From positions 104,243-168,242 of the IMG/VR virus record IMGVR_UViG_3300032246_001180: a stretch of 64,000 nucleotides of DNA; one strand, written 5' to 3'. The position numbers and the translations under genes are program-made. The DNA comes from a virus. Positions 4,835 to 45,600 of the stretch are shown piece by piece. Numbering within the stretch: the stretch's first letter is position 1; each line of letters starts with the position of its first letter. The notes under the pieces are model-generated. The model saw only the letters and a program-made list of their open reading frames with translations, had not been told where the DNA came from and did no database searches.

Positions 4835-5990
4835 AAATGCAAAAGCATTCATTGTTGCTGCAGAATCACTCTTTGGTGAAAATTCGGTATTGACCCGTGA
4901 TGAAATCACCAAAGTTTGTAATGAATCGGCCGCTCCATATCCTTACTGGCTTGTAACAAAAGCTGAGTATCGTTCTGGTCGTGGTTCTTATCGTGTCCCT
5001 AGTTCAGGAGAAAAAGTAGTGAAAAAATCTGTAGCACCAGTTGAAGAAATGGAAACCGAAGTAGCATATGCTCAAGTTGTTCATTTGCGCCAACCAAAGT
5101 TGGTAGATGAATCTGATTCGGCCGTTCCATCAAAATTCCCTGATTATGTGCCATTTGGTTTTTTCAAAGACCTTAAAGGTATCATTCAATCTCGACAATT
5201 TTATCCTGTGTTTGTTACTGGACTTTCAGGCAACGGCAAAACCTTGATGGTTGAGCAAGTGTGTGCAGATTTGCAACGTGAATGTATCCGTATCAACATT
5301 TCTATCGAAACAGATGAAACAGATTTGTTGGGTGGTTTTGCTTTGATTGATGGTAATACAGTTTATCGTGATGGTCCTATTCTTCAAGCAATGAAGCGTG
5401 GTGCAGTTTGTTTGATTGACGAAGTTGACCGTGGTTCAAATAAACTTATGTGTTTGCAAGGTATCATGGAAGGCAAACCACACTATAACAAGAAAACTGG
5501 CGAAATGGTTTATCCAAAACAAGGATTTACCGTGATTGCTACTGCAAACACCAAAGGTCGTGGTAGTGATGAAGGCAAGTATCTTTCACAGATTCTTGAT
5601 GATGCATTTCTTGAGCGTTTTCCAATTACTGTTGAACAGGAATATCCTGATGCACGAACAGAAAAGAAAATTCTAAAACCATTGCTTAACGACCAAGATT
5701 TCGTAGAACATTTGGTTCAATGGGCTGATGTAGTTCGTAAATCATACCAAGAAGGTGCGACTGACGAAATTATCTCTACTCGCCGTCTTGTGCATATTGC
5801 CAAAGCATATGGAATTTTCAATGACCGTATGAAAGCAATTACATTGTGTGTCAATCGTTTTGATGAAGAAACGAAAATGGCATTTCTAGATTTGTATTCT
5901 AAAGTTGACGCCTCTGTAGCATCGCCTGCGAATACAAGTACCACTACCGTTACTACGGATCCATCCGCAACCACGGAAGTACCGTTTTGA
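4827..5990 (+). CDS. AAA+ ATPase, CobS/MoxR-like
   Basis: A 387-residue protein. Residues 1-60 look like a small winged-helix domain (LTRDEITKVCNES). Then comes an AAA+ core with Walker A GLSGNGKT at 132-139, Walker B CLIDEVD at about 195-201 and a sensor-like TANTKGRG near 236. Similar proteins in T4-like phages are annotated CobS-like or MoxR-family ATPases. They probably remodel a protein complex rather than make cobalamin. No CobT or VWA partner is encoded in this window. The low-complexity end is Thr/Ser/Pro rich. Confidence 0.88.
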   Translation: MNKNAKAFIVAAESLFGENSVLTRDEITKVCNESAAPYPYWLVTKAEYRSGRGSYRVPSSGEKVVKKSVAPVEEMETEVAYAQVVHLRQPKLVDESDSAVPSKFPDYVPFGFFKDLKGIIQSRQFYPVFVTGLSGNGKTLMVEQVCADLQRECIRINISIETDETDLLGGFALIDGNTVYRDGPILQAMKRGAVCLIDEVDRGSNKLMCLQGIMEGKPHYNKKTGEMVYPKQGFTVIATANTKGRGSDEGKYLSQILDDAFLERFPITVEQEYPDARTEKKILKPLLNDQDFVEHLVQWADVVRKSYQEGATDEIISTRRLVHIAKAYGIFNDRMKAITLCVNRFDEETKMAFLDLYSKVDASVASPANTSTTTVTTDPSATTEVPF

Positions 5991-6015
5991 TTAGTGGTAA
6001 ACAACCGATTAGGGC

Positions 6016-6044
6016 TTGCCAAACAAGTTCTAATCGTGTATAAT
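6016..6044 (+). promoter_or_regulatory. sigma70-like promoter
   Basis: TTGCCA (6016-6021), a 17-base spacer and TATAAT (6039-6044) in GTGTATAATGG. It lies in the gap before the gene starting at 6100. The -35 is weaker than in its siblings and a full GTTG/CAAC pair is missing, although CAAC occurs at 6002-6005. Confidence 0.65.
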
Positions 6045-6099
6045 GGTAGGTGTAGCTGATTCATGCTATATTATGTTTAATTTGATAGGAGTATATAAA

Positions 6100-6438
6100 A
6101 TGGCTTTAACTGTTCGTAAAGGCAAAATCAATCGCCACGAAAAAATCACCCAAGTGATGTTGAGTGGCAAACCTGTAACGCCAGATGAAATCAAATCTGT
6201 GTTTGCTGGTACAGACCAAGAAGCGGTCTTGTATCGTTTGTCAACCAACATTTATAATATCCGCAAAGATGGCGGTATCGTAAAAGTTATCAAGAATGGC
6301 CGTAAGGTCGAGGCGTATCAGTTGGTTAACTATACAGAGTTTGATGCTAGTGGTCGTTTCAAAGGCGCAGCCAAAACTGCACCTAAGACTGTTGCACAAG
6401 CAGCTGCAATAGTCATGACTGAAACTGTTACAGCGTAA
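6100..6438 (+). CDS. winged-helix-like small protein
   Basis: A 112-residue basic protein. Residues 10-70 (KITQVMLSGKPVTPDEIKSV, then YRLSTNIYNIRKDGGIVKVI) have the helix-helix-beta-hairpin look of a winged helix, similar to the N-terminal part of the ATPase at 4827. The end is Ala/Thr rich. Start 6100 is preferred over 6043 because AGGAG precedes it. It may bind DNA; the specific role is unknown. Confidence 0.75.
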   Translation: MALTVRKGKINRHEKITQVMLSGKPVTPDEIKSVFAGTDQEAVLYRLSTNIYNIRKDGGIVKVIKNGRKVEAYQLVNYTEFDASGRFKGAAKTAPKTVAQAAAIVMTETVTA

Positions 6439-13190: not shown

Positions 13191-13698
13191 TGATGATGAT
13201 TATGATTACAACCGTTATGAAATGGTTCTCAAACAACTTCTTGGTGCTATGTGGCGTGATGAAGAAAATTTGGAAAGAGGTGAAAATATCTCCGATATTC
13301 CAGAAGTTAAAATTATGTTTGAATCTTACGCTGACAAAGAACTTGAAGATGACGATGGTAATTATGTTGAAACTATTGAGAATGGTGATACCAATCAAGA
13401 ATGTTATTGCATATTCATTCACAAAGATTCTGGTCAAGAAGGTTTTGAATTCCCCGAACATGATTCATATGCATTTACTTTTGGTAGTTTGATTCAACAT
13501 CGACCTGCTGAAGAAGTGTGTATCTATGCATGGTATGATGTTAAAGAAGATGATTGGTCTATCAATTCATTAGAAGAAACATCGGAACACGAAATGACCA
13601 ATAAACAGGTTATGGATATTTTAGAAACACTTTATAGTAGATATTATAAATCTACTGAAAACGATACAACATGGGATAATTGGAAGGCGATGAAATGA
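13183..13698 (+). CDS. acidic hypothetical protein
   Basis: A 171-residue, strongly acidic protein starting MIDDDDYDYNRYEMVLKQLL. A central part, FIHKDSGQEGFEFPEHDSYA, is followed by a helical end. The start at 13183 overlaps the previous gene's stop; an earlier in-frame codon at 13168 is not needed. It ends just inside the first TctC-like gene. Not recognised; its acidity could suit DNA mimicry. Confidence 0.7.
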   Translation: MIDDDDYDYNRYEMVLKQLLGAMWRDEENLERGENISDIPEVKIMFESYADKELEDDDGNYVETIENGDTNQECYCIFIHKDSGQEGFEFPEHDSYAFTFGSLIQHRPAEEVCIYAWYDVKEDDWSINSLEETSEHEMTNKQVMDILETLYSRYYKSTENDTTWDNWKAMK

Positions 13699-14642
13699 AA
13701 TTGAAATTAATTATTGCAACTATGGCTCTGATAACATCTACAGCATTTGCTCAAGAGTGGCCACAAAAAACGGTTAAGGTTGTTGTACCTTTGGGTGCTG
13801 GCAGTTCTTTGGATATTATTACTAGAATTGTTTTTGAACAAGTTTCTAAACAAACAGGAAAACCTTTTGTAATAGAAAATAAACCAGGCGCTAGTGGTAC
13901 GATTGCCGCTTCTGGTTTTGTAAAATCTGCGCCTGATGGCCACACTCTTTTTGTGAACACATGGACACAAACAATATTACCATCAGCATTTAAAAATTTA
14001 AGTTATAGTGTTGAAAATGATTTCACAAACATAACTGGACTCATTACACAGCCTTTTGTTTTTACGACCAAATCTAAATGGAAAAATTTCAATGACATGG
14101 TAAAGTATGGTCGAGAAAATCCAGAAAAACTGGCATATGCAACGGCAGGAAAAGGTAGTGGCGGACACTTTTGTATGGAAAAGTTTGCACAACAAGCGAA
14201 TCTCAAAATGCTCGATGTACCATATAAGTCAACAACAGAACCTCTTATGAATATTATGAGTGGTGATATCGATACGTTTTGTAATACATTAACCCAAGCT
14301 ATTCCGTTAGAAAAAGACAATCGTATCGTTTTAAGTGCTGTACTTGATTCTAAACGTTCACCGCTTTTACCAAATGTACCAACATTAAAAGAATTGGGTT
14401 ACGATGTAAATCTTCATTATTGGATTGGAGTTTTTGGTCCTGCAAAAATGGATGAAGCATTAGTTAATAAAATAAACAAAGAGATTCAATTGGCCATGGA
14501 AAACACCACAGTTAAAGGTAGGATTTGGGTTACAGGTTCCACACCTTTAACTATGACACCAAAACAATTTGATTCTTTTGTTCATAAACAAATTAAAGAA
14601 AATGCAGGGATTGTAACCCGTTCTAAAATAACAATGGAGTAA
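13695..14642 (+). CDS. TctC/Bug-family periplasmic solute-binding protein, copy 1
   Basis: A 315-residue exported protein. The signal peptide (MKLKLIIATMALITSTAFA) is followed by QEWPQKTVKVVVPLGAGSSL, the typical start of tripartite tricarboxylate transporter receptors (PF03401). Later blocks include GKPFVIENKPGASGTIAA, PNVPTLKELGYDV and WIGVFGPA. Bug proteins bind carboxylates and other small organics in the periplasm and deliver them to TctAB. No TctA or TctB lies in the window, so it would have to work with host permeases or act as a sensor. It is followed by a tandem copy. Confidence 0.92.
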   Translation: MKLKLIIATMALITSTAFAQEWPQKTVKVVVPLGAGSSLDIITRIVFEQVSKQTGKPFVIENKPGASGTIAASGFVKSAPDGHTLFVNTWTQTILPSAFKNLSYSVENDFTNITGLITQPFVFTTKSKWKNFNDMVKYGRENPEKLAYATAGKGSGGHFCMEKFAQQANLKMLDVPYKSTTEPLMNIMSGDIDTFCNTLTQAIPLEKDNRIVLSAVLDSKRSPLLPNVPTLKELGYDVNLHYWIGVFGPAKMDEALVNKINKEIQLAMENTTVKGRIWVTGSTPLTMTPKQFDSFVHKQIKENAGIVTRSKITME

Positions 14643-14650
14643 TTATGAAA
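14609..14650 (+). repeat. 42-bp direct repeat, copy 1
   Basis: The 42 bases at 14609-14650 are identical to 15565-15606. They span the last codons of each TctC gene, the stop, the next ribosome site and the first two codons of the following gene. Such a repeat is a natural crossover point for expansion or loss of TctC copies. Confidence 0.9.
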
Positions 14651-15598
14651 TTGAAATTAATTATTGCAGCAATGGTTATGGTAACATCTACATCATTTGC
14701 TCAAGAATGGCCACAAAAACAGGTAAAAGTTATCATTGCTGGAACTCCAGGCAGTGTTTTAGATAATATCTCTAGAACCGTTTTTGAACAAGTATCAAAA
14801 CAAACAGGTAAAGCATTTACAATGGAAAATAAAGCTGGTGCTGGCGGCACCATTGCTTCAACAATTGTTGCTAAATCTTTATCTGATGGCCATACATTAC
14901 TTGTCAATACTATTACACATACTGTTGTTCCTTCAGCATATAAAAATTTGCCTTATAATGTAGAAGAAGATTTTACAAATATATCTGGACTAATTTCTCA
15001 ACCTTTTGCTGTTGCGACAAGTTTAAAATGGAAAACTGTAGGTGAAATTGTAAAATATGGAAAAGAAAATCCTGGTAAATTGAATTATGGAACACCAGGA
15101 GTAGGAAGTTCAGGCCATCTTTTTATGGAAAAATTTTCACATTCAGCAAACTTTAAAATGGAAAATATTCCTTTTCGTGGTTCTCCTGAAGCTATGATTG
15201 AATTAGCAGCTGGAAGAATAGATATCTTTCCGGCACCTGTCAGTCAAGCATTACCTTTTCAAAAAGATGGACGTGTTAATATTGTTGCTGTAACATCACC
15301 GAAACGTTCAGTAAATTTACCAGATGTACCCACAATGTCCGAATCAGGTGTTTTGGGTGCTACATATCTATATTGGATCGGTGTGTTTGGTCCATCTAAA
15401 ATGGATACGAAGCAAACCTCAATCATTAATTCGGAGATACAGCGTGCTCTATCCTCACCTGAAGTTAAATTGAAATTAAATGATTTAGGTATAACAGAAA
15501 CATTTAAAATGACTTCAAACGAATTCGATAATTTTGTTAGAAGTGAAATTAAACACAACGCAGAGATTGTAACCCGTTCTAAAATAACAATGGAGTAA
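14645..15598 (+). CDS. TctC/Bug-family periplasmic solute-binding protein, copy 2
   Basis: A 317-residue paralogue of the preceding gene. The signal peptide is MKLKLIIAAMVMVTSTSFA, then QEWPQKQVKVIIAGTPGSVL. It shares the family blocks (GKAFTMENKAGAGGTIAST, LPDVPTMSESG, YWIGVFGPS) and the identical C-terminus IVTRSKITME. Divergence in the ligand-contacting loops (PLGAGSSLD versus AGTPGSVLD) suggests different ligands. The ribosome site of each following gene (GGAG) is embedded in the ATGGAG codons at the end of each copy, so a gene-plus-RBS unit was duplicated. Confidence 0.92.
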   Translation: MKLKLIIAAMVMVTSTSFAQEWPQKQVKVIIAGTPGSVLDNISRTVFEQVSKQTGKAFTMENKAGAGGTIASTIVAKSLSDGHTLLVNTITHTVVPSAYKNLPYNVEEDFTNISGLISQPFAVATSLKWKTVGEIVKYGKENPGKLNYGTPGVGSSGHLFMEKFSHSANFKMENIPFRGSPEAMIELAAGRIDIFPAPVSQALPFQKDGRVNIVAVTSPKRSVNLPDVPTMSESGVLGATYLYWIGVFGPSKMDTKQTSIINSEIQRALSSPEVKLKLNDLGITETFKMTSNEFDNFVRSEIKHNAEIVTRSKITME

Positions 15599-20550: not shown

Positions 20551-21387
20551 ATGAAAACTATAAAAACAATCTTTGGTATCACGTTAATTGGTTTATTACT
20601 GATTTCGATTAACAATGCGTTTGCATGGACACAAAGACCTAATTTTCCACAAGAGCAATGTGCAGTTCACGCACCTTACGGATTTCCACAGGCCGCAGGT
20701 TCACCAATCTGCCGTCAAGCATATTATGTTGACTATGATGCAGCTGCAAAGTTGCCAAAGGTTGTAACATACACTTTAACACCACCAAATGCAATAGGTT
20801 GTGTTGCTAGAACTAACGCATTTACAGCAGACCAATCGATTCAGAATGGCGCCAGACCAGATGACTACGCAGCCACAGGTTACGATAAAGGTCATATGGC
20901 ACCTGATGGTGATTTAAGTTGGGACCAACAAGTTGAATATGAATCGTTTTTGATGACCAATATGAGTCCTCAAGCAGGTTCATTGAACAGAGGTATTTGG
21001 AAGTTGTTGGAAACATCTGTGCGTGGCTGGGTTGTACAACGCAATCAAGTATATACAATTTATGTTGGTGGTGTTTACAACGCAAATGATAAACGAATTG
21101 GTACTGGTGTTGTTGTACCAAATGCATTTTATAAAATTGTAATTAATCAATCAACAAACGAAGTTGCTGGTTGGTATTTCCCTCATGTGGCACCTTATCC
21201 AAATTTAGGTAATGATTTGACAAAGTTTAGAGCAAGTGTTGGACAAATACAACAAGCAGCAGGTGTACGTTTTGGTTTCCCAGCAACAGCAAGAGAGATA
21301 GCAGTTGGTCAAGAATGGCCAGTTGATTATGGTGCATTAACAAACGCTAAGCGTGCTAAATGTGGTAGTAATGCATCTGCTGATTGA
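20551..21387 (+). CDS. secreted DNA/RNA non-specific endonuclease (NucA-type)
   Basis: A 278-residue protein with a signal peptide (TIFGITLIGLLLISINNAFA, cleavage near 25). The beta-beta-alpha metal nuclease core has D112-K-G-H115 (the DRGH motif with Lys for Arg) and TNMSPQAGSLNRGIWKLLE, carrying the conserved Asn and Glu. Such nucleases cut DNA and RNA outside the cytoplasm, so host chromosome breakdown would need export or lysis. Possible roles are degrading competing incoming DNA or released nucleic acid. It is probably a late gene from its upstream motif. Confidence 0.88.
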   Translation: MKTIKTIFGITLIGLLLISINNAFAWTQRPNFPQEQCAVHAPYGFPQAAGSPICRQAYYVDYDAAAKLPKVVTYTLTPPNAIGCVARTNAFTADQSIQNGARPDDYAATGYDKGHMAPDGDLSWDQQVEYESFLMTNMSPQAGSLNRGIWKLLETSVRGWVVQRNQVYTIYVGGVYNANDKRIGTGVVVPNAFYKIVINQSTNEVAGWYFPHVAPYPNLGNDLTKFRASVGQIQQAAGVRFGFPATAREIAVGQEWPVDYGALTNAKRAKCGSNASAD

Positions 21388-21410
21388 CTTTTTAGCAAGG
21401 AGCATATATA

Positions 21411-21542
21411 ATGAACTTTAAACGTAAAAAAACAAAGAGGTGCGTTCGTTGTACAATGTGTACACAGCATCGATGGTTAGGTAACAACAAAGGTCGTAAA
21501 CCTATCCGTGATATGCGAAACGAACAAAAAGAATTGTTGTAA
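21411..21542 (+). CDS. 43-residue Cys-rich basic protein
   Basis: ATG after AAGGAG; the product starts MNFKRKKTKRCVRCTMCTQH. It has CVRCTMC (C-x-x-C-x-x-C) plus a nearby His, which could bind zinc. It is very basic. It lies directly before the tmRNA acceptor piece, whose likely processed 5' end falls near this gene's stop. Small zinc peptides of this kind often bind RNA or ribosomes, by inference only. Confidence 0.6.
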   Translation: MNFKRKKTKRCVRCTMCTQHRWLGNNKGRKPIRDMRNEQKELL

Positions 21543-21597
21543 TCCCTTCTAAGCGAAGGACTTCTGGACGGGGGTGCGAATCCCCCCAGCTCCACCA
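21543..21597 (+). ncRNA. ssrA: tmRNA acceptor piece
   Basis: The T arm is GGGGG, loop TGCGAAT, CCCCC (about 21570-21586), then CAGCTCC, discriminator A and an encoded CCA at 21595-21597. Upstream a CCTTC/GAAGG hairpin spans 21544-21560. GGAC before the T arm is the usual tmRNA junction. The exact 5' end cannot be read from sequence. Confidence 0.88.
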
Positions 21598-21658
21598 ATT
21601 ATCTACTTTTATCCGGAAACAGATAATTATTCGGATTAAATAAAAGTGTATAATTGAT

Positions 21659-21866
21659 GGGGCTGCATAGTTTCGACAGGGGTAGATAGTAAAGACGGCA
21701 ACACGGTAGGCGATGACCGTTAATCAAGCAAAACAAGTAAACGCAAACGATAGCGAATACGCATTAGCAGCTTAAAGGCCGCTTAGGGTTTTTGGCAGTT
21801 TATCCTCGTAACAGAATTAAACTGCCTAAATAAATTTACTAGACAACACACACAATCGTCTAGTAA
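21659..21866 (+). ncRNA. ssrA: tmRNA coding piece with tag ANDSEYALAA
   Basis: Starts GGGGCTGCATAGTTTCGACA, the tmRNA 5' consensus. A hairpin ACGGT/ACCGT (21703-21720) is the likely PK1. The resume codon GCA is at 21743; codons GCA AAC GAT AGC GAA TAC GCA TTA GCA GCT then TAA (21773-21775) give ANDSEYALAA. Downstream helices are GGCAGTTT/AAACTGCC (21794-21826) and TTACTAGAC/GTCTAGTAA (21836-21866). The 3' end is placed at the last helix and is approximate. A TATAAT at 21649-21654 could give this piece its own start. Confidence 0.9.
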
Positions 21867-22172: not shown

Positions 22173-22229
22173 TTGGGGTACTCCGTACCTGCGATTCGTT
22201 GTGGGTACGGTCATCAACAAGGAGAGAAG

Positions 22230-22751
22230 ATGACAAAAACAAAAAATAATCTAGTAGTAGGTTTACTAACGATAACATTAATTGCATTTAATCTTATCAA
22301 TCCAATATCGATAAGCTTTGCACAAGATTTTGTACGCAAAGAAGTTATCCAAGAATACAATAAAGAAGTTGATTGCTTAGCAGAAAATATTTACTACGAA
22401 TCTGCAAGCGAATCATTCGAAGGCAAATTGGCTGTAGCACAGGTAACAATTAACCGTGTTAAGTCGGGTAAATTTGCAGACAACATCTGCGGTGTTGTTA
22501 AACAAAAAGATACCATCAATGGTTCTATCGTTTGTCAATTTTCATGGACTTGCCAAGCGGTTAAACACATAGTACGCAACAAGTATCAATGGGAAGAATG
22601 TCAGATTGTTGCCAAAAAAGCACTAACACAATCCGTAGCACACGAATTGCTTTATGAACAAGATGCAATGTACTATCATGCGGTGTATGTTAATCCTAAA
22701 TGGAAATTAAAAAGAGTAACACAAATAGGTAATCATATATTTTATAGATAG
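22230..22751 (+). CDS. SleB-type cell-wall hydrolase with N-terminal signal/anchor
   Basis: A 173-residue protein. Residues 10-32 form a signal or signal-anchor (LLTITLIAFNLINPISISFA). The SleB domain follows: CLAENIYYESASESFEGKLA near 49-68 with the presumed catalytic Glu52, INRVKSGKFADNICGVV, and CQFSWTC. SleB-family proteins cleave peptidoglycan glycan strands. It could be a signal-arrest-release or exported endolysin. The start at 22230 follows AAGGAG; an upstream in-frame 22173 start is not needed. A promoter for the next operon starts just after its stop. Confidence 0.85.
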   Translation: MTKTKNNLVVGLLTITLIAFNLINPISISFAQDFVRKEVIQEYNKEVDCLAENIYYESASESFEGKLAVAQVTINRVKSGKFADNICGVVKQKDTINGSIVCQFSWTCQAVKHIVRNKYQWEECQIVAKKALTQSVAHELLYEQDAMYYHAVYVNPKWKLKRVTQIGNHIFYR

Positions 22752-24823: not shown

Positions 24824-25711
24824 ATGAGTTCATTTGCAAACCTCAAACGCCAATCTGGCAATCTCGATAAGCTTTCTAAAGCAATCGAAGCTCTCAACAC
24901 TAGCGAGAGCGGTTCAGAAAAACAGGATAACTTCTGGCGACCAGAAGTAGACAAAGCTGGCAACGGCATGGCTACAATCCGTTTTCTCCCCGCACCCTCA
25001 GTTGATGGTGATGACGCACTACCTTGGGCAAAAGTCTTCTCTCACGGGTTCCAAGGACCTGGTGGTTGGTTAATCGATAACTGTTTGACTACCAAAAATC
25101 AACAATGTCCTGTCTGCGAACATAATTCTGCTTTGTGGAATTCTGGCATCGAAGCCAATAAAGATGTTGTTCGTAAACAAAAGCGTAAGCTGAATTATAT
25201 CGCTAACGTCTACATTGTTTCGGATCCAAAACACCCCGAAAATGAAGGCAAAATCAAACTCTTTAAGTTTGGTAAGAAAATCTTTGACAAGATTACTGAA
25301 GCCATGAACCCACAATTTGAAGATGAAACTGCAATCAATCCGTTTGATTTGTGGAAAGGTGCTAACTTCAAGTTGAAGATTCGTAAAGTTGAAGGCTATC
25401 AGAATTATGATAAATCCGAATTTGATTCTCCTTCTGCTCTATTGTCTGATGATGATGAGTTGGAGAAAATCTGGAAGAATGAATTCTCATTGGCAGAAAT
25501 GACTGCTGAAAAAGAATTCAAATCGTATGACGCTTTGAAACAGCGCCTAGATAAAGTTCTTGGTTTGAATGGTGAAGCACCACGCACAACTGTTGAACAA
25601 ACAAAGGCAAAGAACTTTGATGCACCTAAGAAAGCAACCGCTGAACCGGTTCTTGCTGATGGTGATGAAGATGATTTGTCATACTTCTCAAAACTTGCTG
25701 AAGAAGAATAA
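24824..25711 (+). CDS. 32: single-stranded DNA-binding protein, gp32-like
   Basis: A 295-residue protein with the gp32 layout. A basic N-terminal cooperativity region (FANLKRQSGNLDKLSKAIE) is followed by the OB fold with a zinc site, H74, C87, C95 and C98. The spacing is close to T4 (H64-x12-C77-x9-C87-x2-C90). An acidic C-terminus (DGDEDDLSYFSKLAEEE) is typical for partner binding. It coats ssDNA in replication and recombination. A strong terminator follows. Confidence 0.93.
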   Translation: MSSFANLKRQSGNLDKLSKAIEALNTSESGSEKQDNFWRPEVDKAGNGMATIRFLPAPSVDGDDALPWAKVFSHGFQGPGGWLIDNCLTTKNQQCPVCEHNSALWNSGIEANKDVVRKQKRKLNYIANVYIVSDPKHPENEGKIKLFKFGKKIFDKITEAMNPQFEDETAINPFDLWKGANFKLKIRKVEGYQNYDKSEFDSPSALLSDDDELEKIWKNEFSLAEMTAEKEFKSYDALKQRLDKVLGLNGEAPRTTVEQTKAKNFDAPKKATAEPVLADGDEDDLSYFSKLAEEE

Positions 25712-25783: not shown

Positions 25784-26827
25784 ATGGAAATATTGAAACT
25801 TACAGATGGCCTCGGCTATCTATGGATGGTTTTCTTCATAATGATTTCTGCTGGACTAGCAAAAGAATATAACCTTTTTGCCCCAGCGTACTCTTATGTC
25901 AAGAACACTTTCCGGTCAAACAAATTTGTTATTGTTCTTTTATCTGCTATTGGTGGTATTCTGCCAATTGAGGGTCGAGTAACAGTATCGGCAGGTTTGT
26001 TAGACACCGTTGCGCCAAAGGATGGCCAAGGTCGTGAAAAGATGGGTATTGTTGATTATCTATCAACGCATCACTATTATATGTGGTCGCCACTAGAAAA
26101 GACAGTTGTTCTTCCTATCGCAGCTTTTGGTCTTACATACACAGCATTCATGGGAATGATTGCACCATTACTGGTCGTTAGTCTTGGTTTTATTTCTTGG
26201 TATATTTGGCGAGAAGTAAAAGATGAAGATATCGTGGTTTCAAACCTAGATAATTTCAAACTAAGTTCAGTAATTCGTAATGTATTTCCAATGTTCGTTG
26301 CAATCGGCACTTACATTTATGTTGGTGGTGCAGATAACGTATTCACAATTTTTGGTTTGTTAGCTCTTTATTATGTGTTCATTACACAACAATGGAACTA
26401 TAGAAAGCTTTCTAAATATATTAATTGGGAAGTTTTGGTTACTGTAGGTGTGGTTATCATTCTAGGTAATCTGGCAAAATCCTATAACAACGAATATGTG
26501 TCATACATTAAAGGTGTGGGTTTCGATCCACACACTTTGATTGGAATGACTCTCATAAGCGTTGTCGGATTTGTGGTTAGTTTTTTGATGGGTAGTTCAG
26601 GTAAGTTTATTGCAATTGCAGTATTGATGGCACAAGTATTTGGCCTAGAATATTTTATGTGGTTTTTTGCAGTAGATTATGCTGGTTACTTGTTGAGTCC
26701 TACTCACAAATGTGTTATGGTTGGAAACCGATATTTCGGCACACCACTCAAAACATATTACAAGGCACTAGGTAGTTGGGCATTATTATTGCTTCTTACT
26801 GCCGGCGCATTTACTTTTTTAATTTAA
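25784..26827 (+). CDS. polytopic inner-membrane transporter-like protein (DUF401-like)
   Basis: A 347-residue protein with roughly nine hydrophobic segments, starting LWMVFFIMISAGLA. A long conserved-looking end contains GSSGKFIAIAVLMAQVFGLE and GYLLSPTHKCVMVGNRYF. LSP-x-H-x-C with a membrane hairpin resembles DUF401 family members of the ion-transporter superfamily. The substrate cannot be told. The gene is followed at nine bases by an outer-membrane barrel-like gene. A phage-encoded permease of this size is unusual. Confidence 0.75.
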   Translation: MEILKLTDGLGYLWMVFFIMISAGLAKEYNLFAPAYSYVKNTFRSNKFVIVLLSAIGGILPIEGRVTVSAGLLDTVAPKDGQGREKMGIVDYLSTHHYYMWSPLEKTVVLPIAAFGLTYTAFMGMIAPLLVVSLGFISWYIWREVKDEDIVVSNLDNFKLSSVIRNVFPMFVAIGTYIYVGGADNVFTIFGLLALYYVFITQQWNYRKLSKYINWEVLVTVGVVIILGNLAKSYNNEYVSYIKGVGFDPHTLIGMTLISVVGFVVSFLMGSSGKFIAIAVLMAQVFGLEYFMWFFAVDYAGYLLSPTHKCVMVGNRYFGTPLKTYYKALGSWALLLLLTAGAFTFLI

Positions 26828-42635: not shown

Positions 42636-45600
42636 TACCTAACGACCAAAGAACCTCTTTATTAATCCCATCACAACTTCCTGGATTTATTCGGGATGAA
42701 GCTGATTCTGGTGGTGCATATGAAAATTTTGTTCACTTCATTCAAGCTTACTATGAATGGATGGAAGAAAATGGGAATGTAATTGATAGAACTAAAAATA
42801 TTTCACAGTATACGGATATTGATGCCACAACAAGTGAATTTATAGATTATTTCTTAAATGATTTTCTTGCTTATTTTCCTAAAGATTCTTTAACAAATAA
42901 ACAGCAAGCAATTAAAGTTGCTCGCCAACTATATCAATCAAAAGGTACAATTTCATCGTATCAACTTCTTTTTAGAATGTTGTTCAATTCAGATTTTGAT
43001 ATTTTTTATACAAAAGATGCGGTACTTAAAGCATCATCAGGTATTTGGTACGTTCCAAAAAGTTTGAAACTTTCTACAAATGATACCAGATTCTTAGACA
43101 TTAAAAATCTTAGAATTTTGGGTGAAACCTCAAAGTCAATTGCAACAATTGAAAATTCAATTTATGCAAGAAATAAAACAGAAGTTTTTATCTCCAACAT
43201 TGAACGACTATTCAATTCAGGAGAATTTGTTCGTATTGTAGATTCAAATAATCAAGATGTTATTATTAACGGAACAAATCTTAGAGCAAAAATTGTAGGA
43301 CAAATTAGCCAAATTAACGTAGCTAAAGATATTTTAGGTAATGCTTTGCGAGGTTCAAACTATGGCACAGGCGATCCTGTTGTAGTTTATGGTGGTTTGA
43401 ATACTGAAATTACTAATCCAGTCGGTGCTCAAGCTGTAGTTGGTCAAACAACATCTGGTTCTATTCAAAGCATCACAGTAACATCAGGTGGATTTGGTTA
43501 CAGATTAAGTCCAAATACTGTTATAAATTTTGGTGGACTAGATGCTTCTGCACAAATTCCAACTGCGGTTGTAGCATCTATTGATCCATCAGCATCCAAC
43601 TCTGCAAATGTAACCTACTTACCACAAGAAATTATTAGTTACAAATCATCTGTTGTAATAGGCAATTCAAATTACTTTTTTGCAAATGGTTATACATTAA
43701 ACGTCAATACAAGTTTGTATTCGGTTAATGCCAACACATTTAAAATTAGTGAAACTCTTTACCAAGGTCCTAGTGGCAATCCAACCTTTTCTGGCGTGGT
43801 ATCGAGATGGGATTCATCCAATGGTATTATTAAATTTAGTTCTGCGAGTGGTACTCCTACTAGAAACGCAAATGTAATTAGTAGTTCAACATCCAATGTA
43901 GCAAACGTTAGAAGTTATTATACATCAAACGCAAACACAGCTATAGTTGAAGCTTTAACTTTTATATCTTTTGAAACTTTTCCAATATCATCTGTTTTGG
44001 TCAACAGTCAAGGCGGCGGCATTAGAACACAACCAACCGTTGTAGCCGACACACTTTATCCTTCCGACATATATGATGCAACTAAAACTGGAAATTTAAG
44101 AAACATAGGTATCTTAGGTCCTATTCAAATCAATAATGGTGGAGTGGGTTACAGAGCAAATGATAGAATTGTTTTTTCTGGAGGTTCAGGTTATGGAGCA
44201 TTTGCAAACGTAACTAATGTAAGTTCTACCGGTGCAATTACAGAAATAAAATATGTTCAAAACAACAGTTCAATTTATCCATTAGGTGGTCAAGGTTTTA
44301 ATTATGCTCTACCAACAATAACAGTTAACTCATCTAATACTGCGGCTTATAATGCATCGTTGTCTGTAACATCTACTTTAGGCGATGGAGCTGTATTTGA
44401 TACTACTTTAGATAGAGTTGGAACTGTAACATCAATTGTTGTTACCGAACCAGGAGAAGATTATATTGGTGCACCAACAATTTCATTAAAAGTTATTGAT
44501 TTATTGGTACAAGGCGCAGATGTTTTGAATTTACCAAATAAAACTATGAAGGTGTATCAGGGTACTGATATTAACACCGCATCTTTTTATGCTAACGTAG
44601 ATTCTATTGCAGCGATTACTTCTACAACTAATATAAATCCAGCACTAACAGATTACTTGTTGAGAATTTATAATTATCAATCATTACCTTCTACTTCACA
44701 AGTATTGAAGTTTACTAATTCAAATATTCAATTAACAATCGACCCACAAACAGTTTCGGCTAATGCTTTCTATACAGGAAGTCCATCATTTCAAGATGGC
44801 ATTAGAATATACGGTGATGGAAATGCAAAAGCTGATGCATCTTTCTTAAACGGTCTTGTTATTGGCCAAGGACAATACTTAAACTCACAAGGACAACCAA
44901 GTTCTTATGATATATTACAAAGTCAAAATTTCAATAACTTTACCTATCAAATCACGGTAGAAAAAGAGATATCAAAATATAGAGAAGCTTTATTAAATCT
45001 ACTTCATCCTACAGGAATGAAAGTCATTGGCCGTTTCAAACTGGTTTCAGAAGGAGATAATAATAATACTCTACATTCAGTTGTATTTAATAAAGCTAGA
45101 ACTTTATATTACTATACTAATGATAACAGTTCTAATGCTGTTATGAGAACAGACTTTTCAAACACAAGTACAAATACAGTTATTTTCTATAATATTGGTG
45201 TTGGAACAAATATTGCTAATATTATTTTTGCAAACAGTTCTATCTTCTTAGGTCCAACCAATGGTCCAGACGTATATTCTAAAGTCAAAACGGTTGATTA
45301 TGCAAACAACAAAATTGTTTTAACAGAAGATATTTTCTTAACCTATTCTAACGTTGCTCATGCAACCGGATCCATTGGTTCAAGCACTATAAATATAACG
45401 TCCATATATACCGATAGATACAACATCGTTAATAATGGAGTGTACAGTAATACCGCATACCCGTTGAAGGATATTATATTTGCTGGTGACCAGATTTTAG
45501 TTGCAAACAATACTGCCAAAACAGTACAGAGTATCAATTATGTAACAGGAACAATAACATTAACTACAAACCTGACAGCAAATACGAATTCAAATGTGGC

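Follow-up and report, generated by a model that had tools for sequence, protein, structure and literature searches.

We judge it probable, at roughly 75%, that the window (the whole 64-kb stretch of DNA analyzed here, bases 104,243-168,242 of a 168,242-base virus record) carries a genuine beta-type permuted tmRNA gene of a phage, in which the spacer between the two gene halves is a cassette that is exchanged independently of the tmRNA body and provides a slot for cargo. Permuted tmRNA is usually described as a split gene whose spacer is discarded. Most of the evidence for the cassette comes from relatives of the window phage and not from the window. Whether the spacer further acts as a dedicated slot, holding either functional small RNAs (new structured families shared with tRNA arrays) or genes for membrane peptides and enzymes that are released or expressed via tRNA and tmRNA processing, is in our estimate an even bet. 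If phages use the spacer and the matching positions of their tRNA arrays in this way, this would offer a motive for retaining the permuted arrangement, and it would point to small phage RNAs and 21-24-aa membrane peptides, as yet undescribed, which standard gene callers may overlook.

The gene was recovered by ARAGORN, which called a permuted tmRNA at 21505-21866 with the tag ANDSEYALAA, and by the covariance-model search that an earlier sequence-only reading of this DNA had proposed as a check. When the 64-kb window was searched with Rfam, RF04321 (tmRNA_permuted) matched 21535-21775 with 150.9 bits against a gathering cut-off of 47 (E 6.4e-30), and RF01850 (beta_tmRNA) matched 21482-21829 with 140.8 bits against a cut-off of 84 (E 5.8e-43); these E values exclude a chance match. 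The beta-type model was the top scorer of its clan at this site, and RF04321 had a single match across the whole virus record. The sequence-only reading had described the T-arm and acceptor half as preceding the half with GGGGCTG and the tag, and this order holds. Its tag and stop agree with the ARAGORN call and with the ORF, and the acceptor pairing that it reported is present, the two 7-nt strands pairing with one U.G pair. It had placed the gene at 21543-21866, of which the end stands and the start falls a few bases inside the gene (21535 in Rfam, 21505 in ARAGORN). The sequence supports the split form of the gene well, and cleavage of its precursor into two RNAs is to be expected.

Table 1. 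Features of the permuted tmRNA locus, in window coordinates.
Feature	Position	Strand	Basis
Sigma70-like promoter, TTGACT-17-TATAAT, 11/12	21384..21412	+	consensus match only
43-aa ORF (MNFKRKKTKRCVRC...), shares bases with the -10 box and the tmRNA 5' edge	21411..21541	+	no Pfam/PHROG match
Acceptor piece (3' half of the tRNA-like domain), T arm	21535..21597	+	ARAGORN, Rfam, fold
Acceptor strand CAGCTCC	21587-21593	+	within acceptor piece
Encoded CCA	21595-21597	+	within acceptor piece
61-nt intervening segment (IVS), stem-bounded cassette, 3' end = conserved TGAT	21598..21658	+	
5' acceptor strand GGGGCTG, where the RNase P product is predicted to start; partner 21587-21593	21659..21665	+	
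Coding piece (5' half) with D-loop analogue TTTCGAC, resume region and tag, then the structures downstream	21659..21866	+	ARAGORN, Rfam
Tag frame ANDSEYALAA and stop TAA (GCA...GCT TAA)	21743..21775	+	ARAGORN and direct reading
Stem GGCAGTTTA/TAAACTGCC, coincides in part with a paired element in beta_tmRNA	21794..21826	+	Rfam alignment
Terminal hairpin TTACTAGAC...GTCTAGTAA, likely 3' end region	21836..21866	+	

The sigma70-like site lies about 120 nt 5' of the acceptor half and is a candidate promoter for the precursor; a consensus scan with a 9/12 cut-off found 6 sites against 5.9 expected, just one of which reached 11/12. The short ORF that overlaps it is possibly a mere leader sequence. 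In the putative mechanism, one transcript, possibly starting from this promoter, would be made and its two halves would pair. RNase P would cut before G21659 and tRNA 3' processing would act after A21597, freeing the spacer, and the IVS is expected to be removed during maturation. The two halves would then act with SmpB, alanyl-tRNA synthetase and EF-Tu of the host in the rescue of stalled ribosomes, adding ANDSEYALAA to stalled products for proteolysis. No SmpB was detected in the phage record, and rescue would therefore rely on the host protein. The slot would let the phage carry small RNA or peptide cargo and co-express it with its tRNA and tmRNA transcripts, the cargo being released by the same tRNA-processing enzymes. 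The processing, the rescue and tagging, and the cargo function proposed here are modeled on established knowledge of two-piece tmRNA.

The spacer of the window folds as the sequence-only reading had described it, with 61 bases, seven further pairs and inner hairpins. Past the 7-bp acceptor stem, pairing runs through A21594-U21658, one C.A mismatch and then exactly seven pairs (CAAUUAU 21596-21602 with AUAAUUG 21650-21656), followed inward by 8-bp and 6-bp stems, and the fold energy of acceptor plus spacer is -29.7 kcal/mol. The pairing thus continues as claimed, but the spacer, which that reading treated as a mere continuation, is the most unusual part of the gene. The short plain spacer of bacterial RF01850 members is not seen here (61 nt vs 5-42 nt), spacer length being no formal criterion of that family.

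Sequence comparison among related phages shows that, within this T4-like group, the spacer forms a cassette bounded by a stem and is exchanged without the tmRNA body. The spacers of the window and of contig L105 are identical at 61/61 positions and lie in a 118-bp identical block from T arm to D arm, which is set in flanks that are about 66% alike. Conversely, L105 and L179 have tmRNA bodies that are 100% (5' part) and 98% (3' part) identical and spacers that are unrelated, and L169 and L299, with bodies 96% and 93% alike, carry one RNA-type and one ORF-type spacer. In a sample not selected by spacer, 67 gene pairs reached a spacer identity of 95% or more, yet in 20 of them the bodies were no more than 72% identical. 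L324 is a closer relative of the window phage (88% in the exonuclease, 76% DNA identity over 3.4 kb), and its spacer is a diverged version of that in the window; therefore, the module seems to belong to the window lineage by origin and to have passed between it and L105 recently. The contigs are metagenomic and single chimeras are possible, but a chimera would combine two different flanks, whereas in these swaps the two flanks are retained and the middle differs, which argues against chimeric assembly. What stays constant in the cassette is its terminal stem, together with a 3' end that in most cases reads TGAT. The inner 10 positions of the stem pair 9.23 on average, compared with 6.81 when partners are swapped, and TGAT closes 91 of 108 distinct spacers.

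Several spacer modules recur beside tRNA genes. Module F3, the spacer in many tmRNAs, lies in L134 directly before a tRNA-Gly gene with another outer stem; F1 precedes tRNA-Gly in four contigs (L192, L204, L211 and L221); and F4 occupies five tRNA-adjacent spacer positions. Copies of the F1, F3 and F4 type outside tmRNA are in sense orientation wherever a gene was called. A 125-nt stem-bounded module from the tRNA array of the window phage has an 81% homologue directly upstream of the tmRNA of L198. This module is one of three putative RNAs with bounding stems, about 97-220 nt long, that lie between the tRNA genes of the window phage (L124:4971-5095, 5541-5760 and 5885-5981, corresponding to about 42,971-43,981 of its own record) and have no Rfam match; the 220-nt element has a homologue in L134. 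In L087, a row of several stem-bounded structured elements (5950-6350) lies upstream of the permuted tmRNA, one of them a second copy of that gene's own spacer core.

F1 and F4 were picked after the spacers were seen, and their contigs come largely from pattern scans. F1 forms a three-way junction, in which the joining strands GACGAA and UAGCAAA are nearly constant and the stems vary. In an alignment of 14 sequences hand-picked to span the diversity, 97.3% of cells were paired and 8 of 16 pairs had changes on both sides; covariation was 0.306, whereas shuffled alignments averaged 0.158 and none of the 500 reached the observed value, and every slid control scored far below it. In F4, a hairpin pair alternates among GC, UA and AU, and stem pairs alternate between CG and UA and between GC and AU, in an alignment from which the outer-stem columns, misaligned by MAFFT, were left out. 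None of the spacer modules tested had a match in Rfam, and the F1 and F4 consensus modules had none in 50,697 cultured-phage records; F1 was likewise not found in 300 genomes of the Herbaspirillum order, in a search run without a positive control. The window carries a module other than F1, as no R1 match at E 0.05 was found in the window or in its own record. Low-threshold Rfam searches of the window spacer and one F4 copy returned weak, mainly microRNA-type matches far below the cut-offs. We could suggest a specific function for the window cassette itself only weakly, because it is a near-simple hairpin with three known members (the window, the identical copy in L105 and the diverged homologue in L324).

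Other spacers encode proteins. A scan for AAGGAG directly after CCA gave 53 loci, mostly permuted tmRNAs, with spacers of 80-494 nt; the scan selects for a Shine-Dalgarno sequence, and the frequency of ORF-type spacers was therefore not estimated. Many of these spacers, with main length classes of 83, 86 and 89 nt, encode single-pass membrane peptides of 21-24 aa whose stop is the conserved TGA of the TGAT end. For the 89-nt class, the differences counted at the three codon positions were 466/263/619, with the fewest at position 2 among pairs that are not independent. A lysis role for these peptides is possible, as a speculation. The peptide family spans L270-L321 and L168, with spacers of 80-89 nt (for example, MNDNLNSLAIGVVIVLIVFALVLL). 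In L268 (1116-1521; IMGVR_UViG_3300023179_000058), a complete 128-aa IscU (PF01592, 3.3e-55) lies between CCA and GGG, and the 10-bp terminal stem of the spacer takes in the Shine-Dalgarno sequence of the iscU-like gene. In phage Melnitz (L265, MZ577097.1, at about 46.1 kb), the spacer measures about 143 nt and includes a possible ATG ORF (MFKWLSKTRLVVITRDYFRERN...) running into the tmRNA body. The glutamine riboswitch of Melnitz was considered as a spacer module and rejected, as it sits downstream of the tag half. Some of the membrane-peptide contigs have an endolysin gene nearby that is homologous to window positions 22173-22751.

These data have to be weighed against a rival account, in which an ordinary permuted tmRNA has an inert, drifting spacer that needs just a processing hairpin, and identical spacers reflect homologous recombination among co-infecting T4-like phages. 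Bacterial spacers are indeed plain short hairpins, the window spacer is itself nearly one, and the block shared with L105 takes in the conserved T and D arms, as a short homologous exchange predicts. However, drift does not predict cores with covarying stems conserved in differing outer contexts, copies of these cores beside tRNA genes, or spacers that are ORFs or a full IscU gene; we therefore consider an inert spacer unlikely, with perhaps one chance in a few.

Still less probable, in our view, is that the modules are mobile DNA, small and non-autonomous, which inserts at tRNA and tmRNA ends without benefit to the phage. The occurrence of one module both in tmRNA bodies that are unrelated and in tRNA spacers would fit such elements, but every listed copy with a called gene has one and the same orientation relative to it, and the tmRNA copies begin right after CCA, which indicates an RNA-level role or constraint. 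We would be very surprised if the locus were a decaying or host-derived fragment, that is, a prophage attachment remnant or host contamination. PMC11915505 describes tmRNA genes as common integration sites; against this, both halves, the tag and the stop are intact, the acceptor pairs co-vary across phages, and the gene is flanked by phage genes within a T4-like record of 168 kb, with synteny conserved in relatives.

The setting of the gene is that of a T4-like phage. Its gp32 (24824-25711) is 57-58% identical to cyanophage gp32 and matches PHROG 224, the baseplate wedge protein is closest to those of Melnitz and Pelagibacter phages (about 39%), and an array of 24 tRNA genes lies elsewhere in the record. 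Adjoining gp32 is a DUF401 membrane protein (25784-26827; PHROG 14035, function not known). Two adjacent genes for TctC, the tripartite tricarboxylate transporter receptor (13680-15598), are possible auxiliary genes and a hint to the host; receptor genes of this type could fit a betaproteobacterial host.

A pattern scan of IMG/VR for permuted tmRNA yielded at least 120 contigs, most of them called as permuted by ARAGORN and with varied tags, and at least 40 (the 40 best of the loci listed) have neighboring T4-like proteins in common with the window phage. The third acceptor pair, of which the pattern left the 3' side free, was complementary in all 121 phage genes compared, namely 120 from the scan and the window (CG 57, UA 36, GC 25, AU 2, UG 1). 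By a pairing scan, permuted tmRNA was present in 51 of the 80 contigs that carry the closest exonuclease relatives, several of the remaining contigs being short, and in many related contigs the gene occupies the same neighborhood. The phage gene is thus old and maintained, and long kept in one neighborhood. It had been supposed that the phage took the gene from a host. The beta-type affinity (RF01850, 140.8 bits) holds, but there is no sign of recent uptake from one host, because the neighborhood is shared by many phages and ARAGORN found permuted tmRNA in 14 of 300 sampled genomes of the Herbaspirillum order.

The suggestion that a permuted tmRNA in a T4-like phage might be new did not hold. 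A two-piece tmRNA in the T4-like phage Melnitz was published in 2022, together with 53 two-piece forms among 133 distinct phage tmRNAs (PMC9004378); RF04321 matches each of the aquatic T4-like phages Melnitz (a phage of Methylophilales), Mosig and HTVC008M (both Pelagibacter phages), and a search of phage genomes for the permuted order, which had been proposed as a check on the gene, gave the contigs described above. In a blastn search of cultured phages with the whole region, only short T-arm-like matches were obtained. The words 'spacer' and 'intervening' are absent from the text of PMC9004378. No report of spacer exchange or protein cargo was found in the open-access literature, most subscription journals being outside that scope. 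Therefore, within the searchable literature, the exchange of spacers and their cargo are the new part, and the gene form itself is known.

GOLLD and ROOL RNAs are linked to phage tRNA arrays. They are large structured ncRNAs associated with phage tRNA genes, according to the available part of PMC12286853, whereas the phage spacer modules measure about 45-125 nt, with one of about 220 nt, and those tested have no Rfam match. Closer in arrangement are two cases in the 2025 tmRNA database, a permuted gene with tRNA-Ala in its spacer and another with a repetitive element (PMC11915505). Like the phage cassettes, they hold cargo within the spacer of a permuted tmRNA; in contrast, they are single cases, one of them in an archaeal-binned genome, and the available part of that paper mentions neither exchange between genes nor protein cargo. 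Melnitz, Mosig and HTVC008M resemble the window phage in being T4-like and in having the permuted order, a tag ending in ALAA and an RF04321 match, but they score as alpha type (RF01849) while the window is of beta type, and the Melnitz spacer of about 143 nt with its possible ORF differs from the 61 nt of the window. Bacterial tmRNAs of the beta type (RF01850, e.g., Herbaspirillum) share with the window the domain layout, often an ALAA-type tag, and a terminal hairpin that closes the spacer. The spacers of the 14 bacterial genes are 5-42 nt long and mostly plain hairpins, whereas phage spacers are mostly 40-124 nt with structured cores and, where they bear ORFs, reach about 500 nt.
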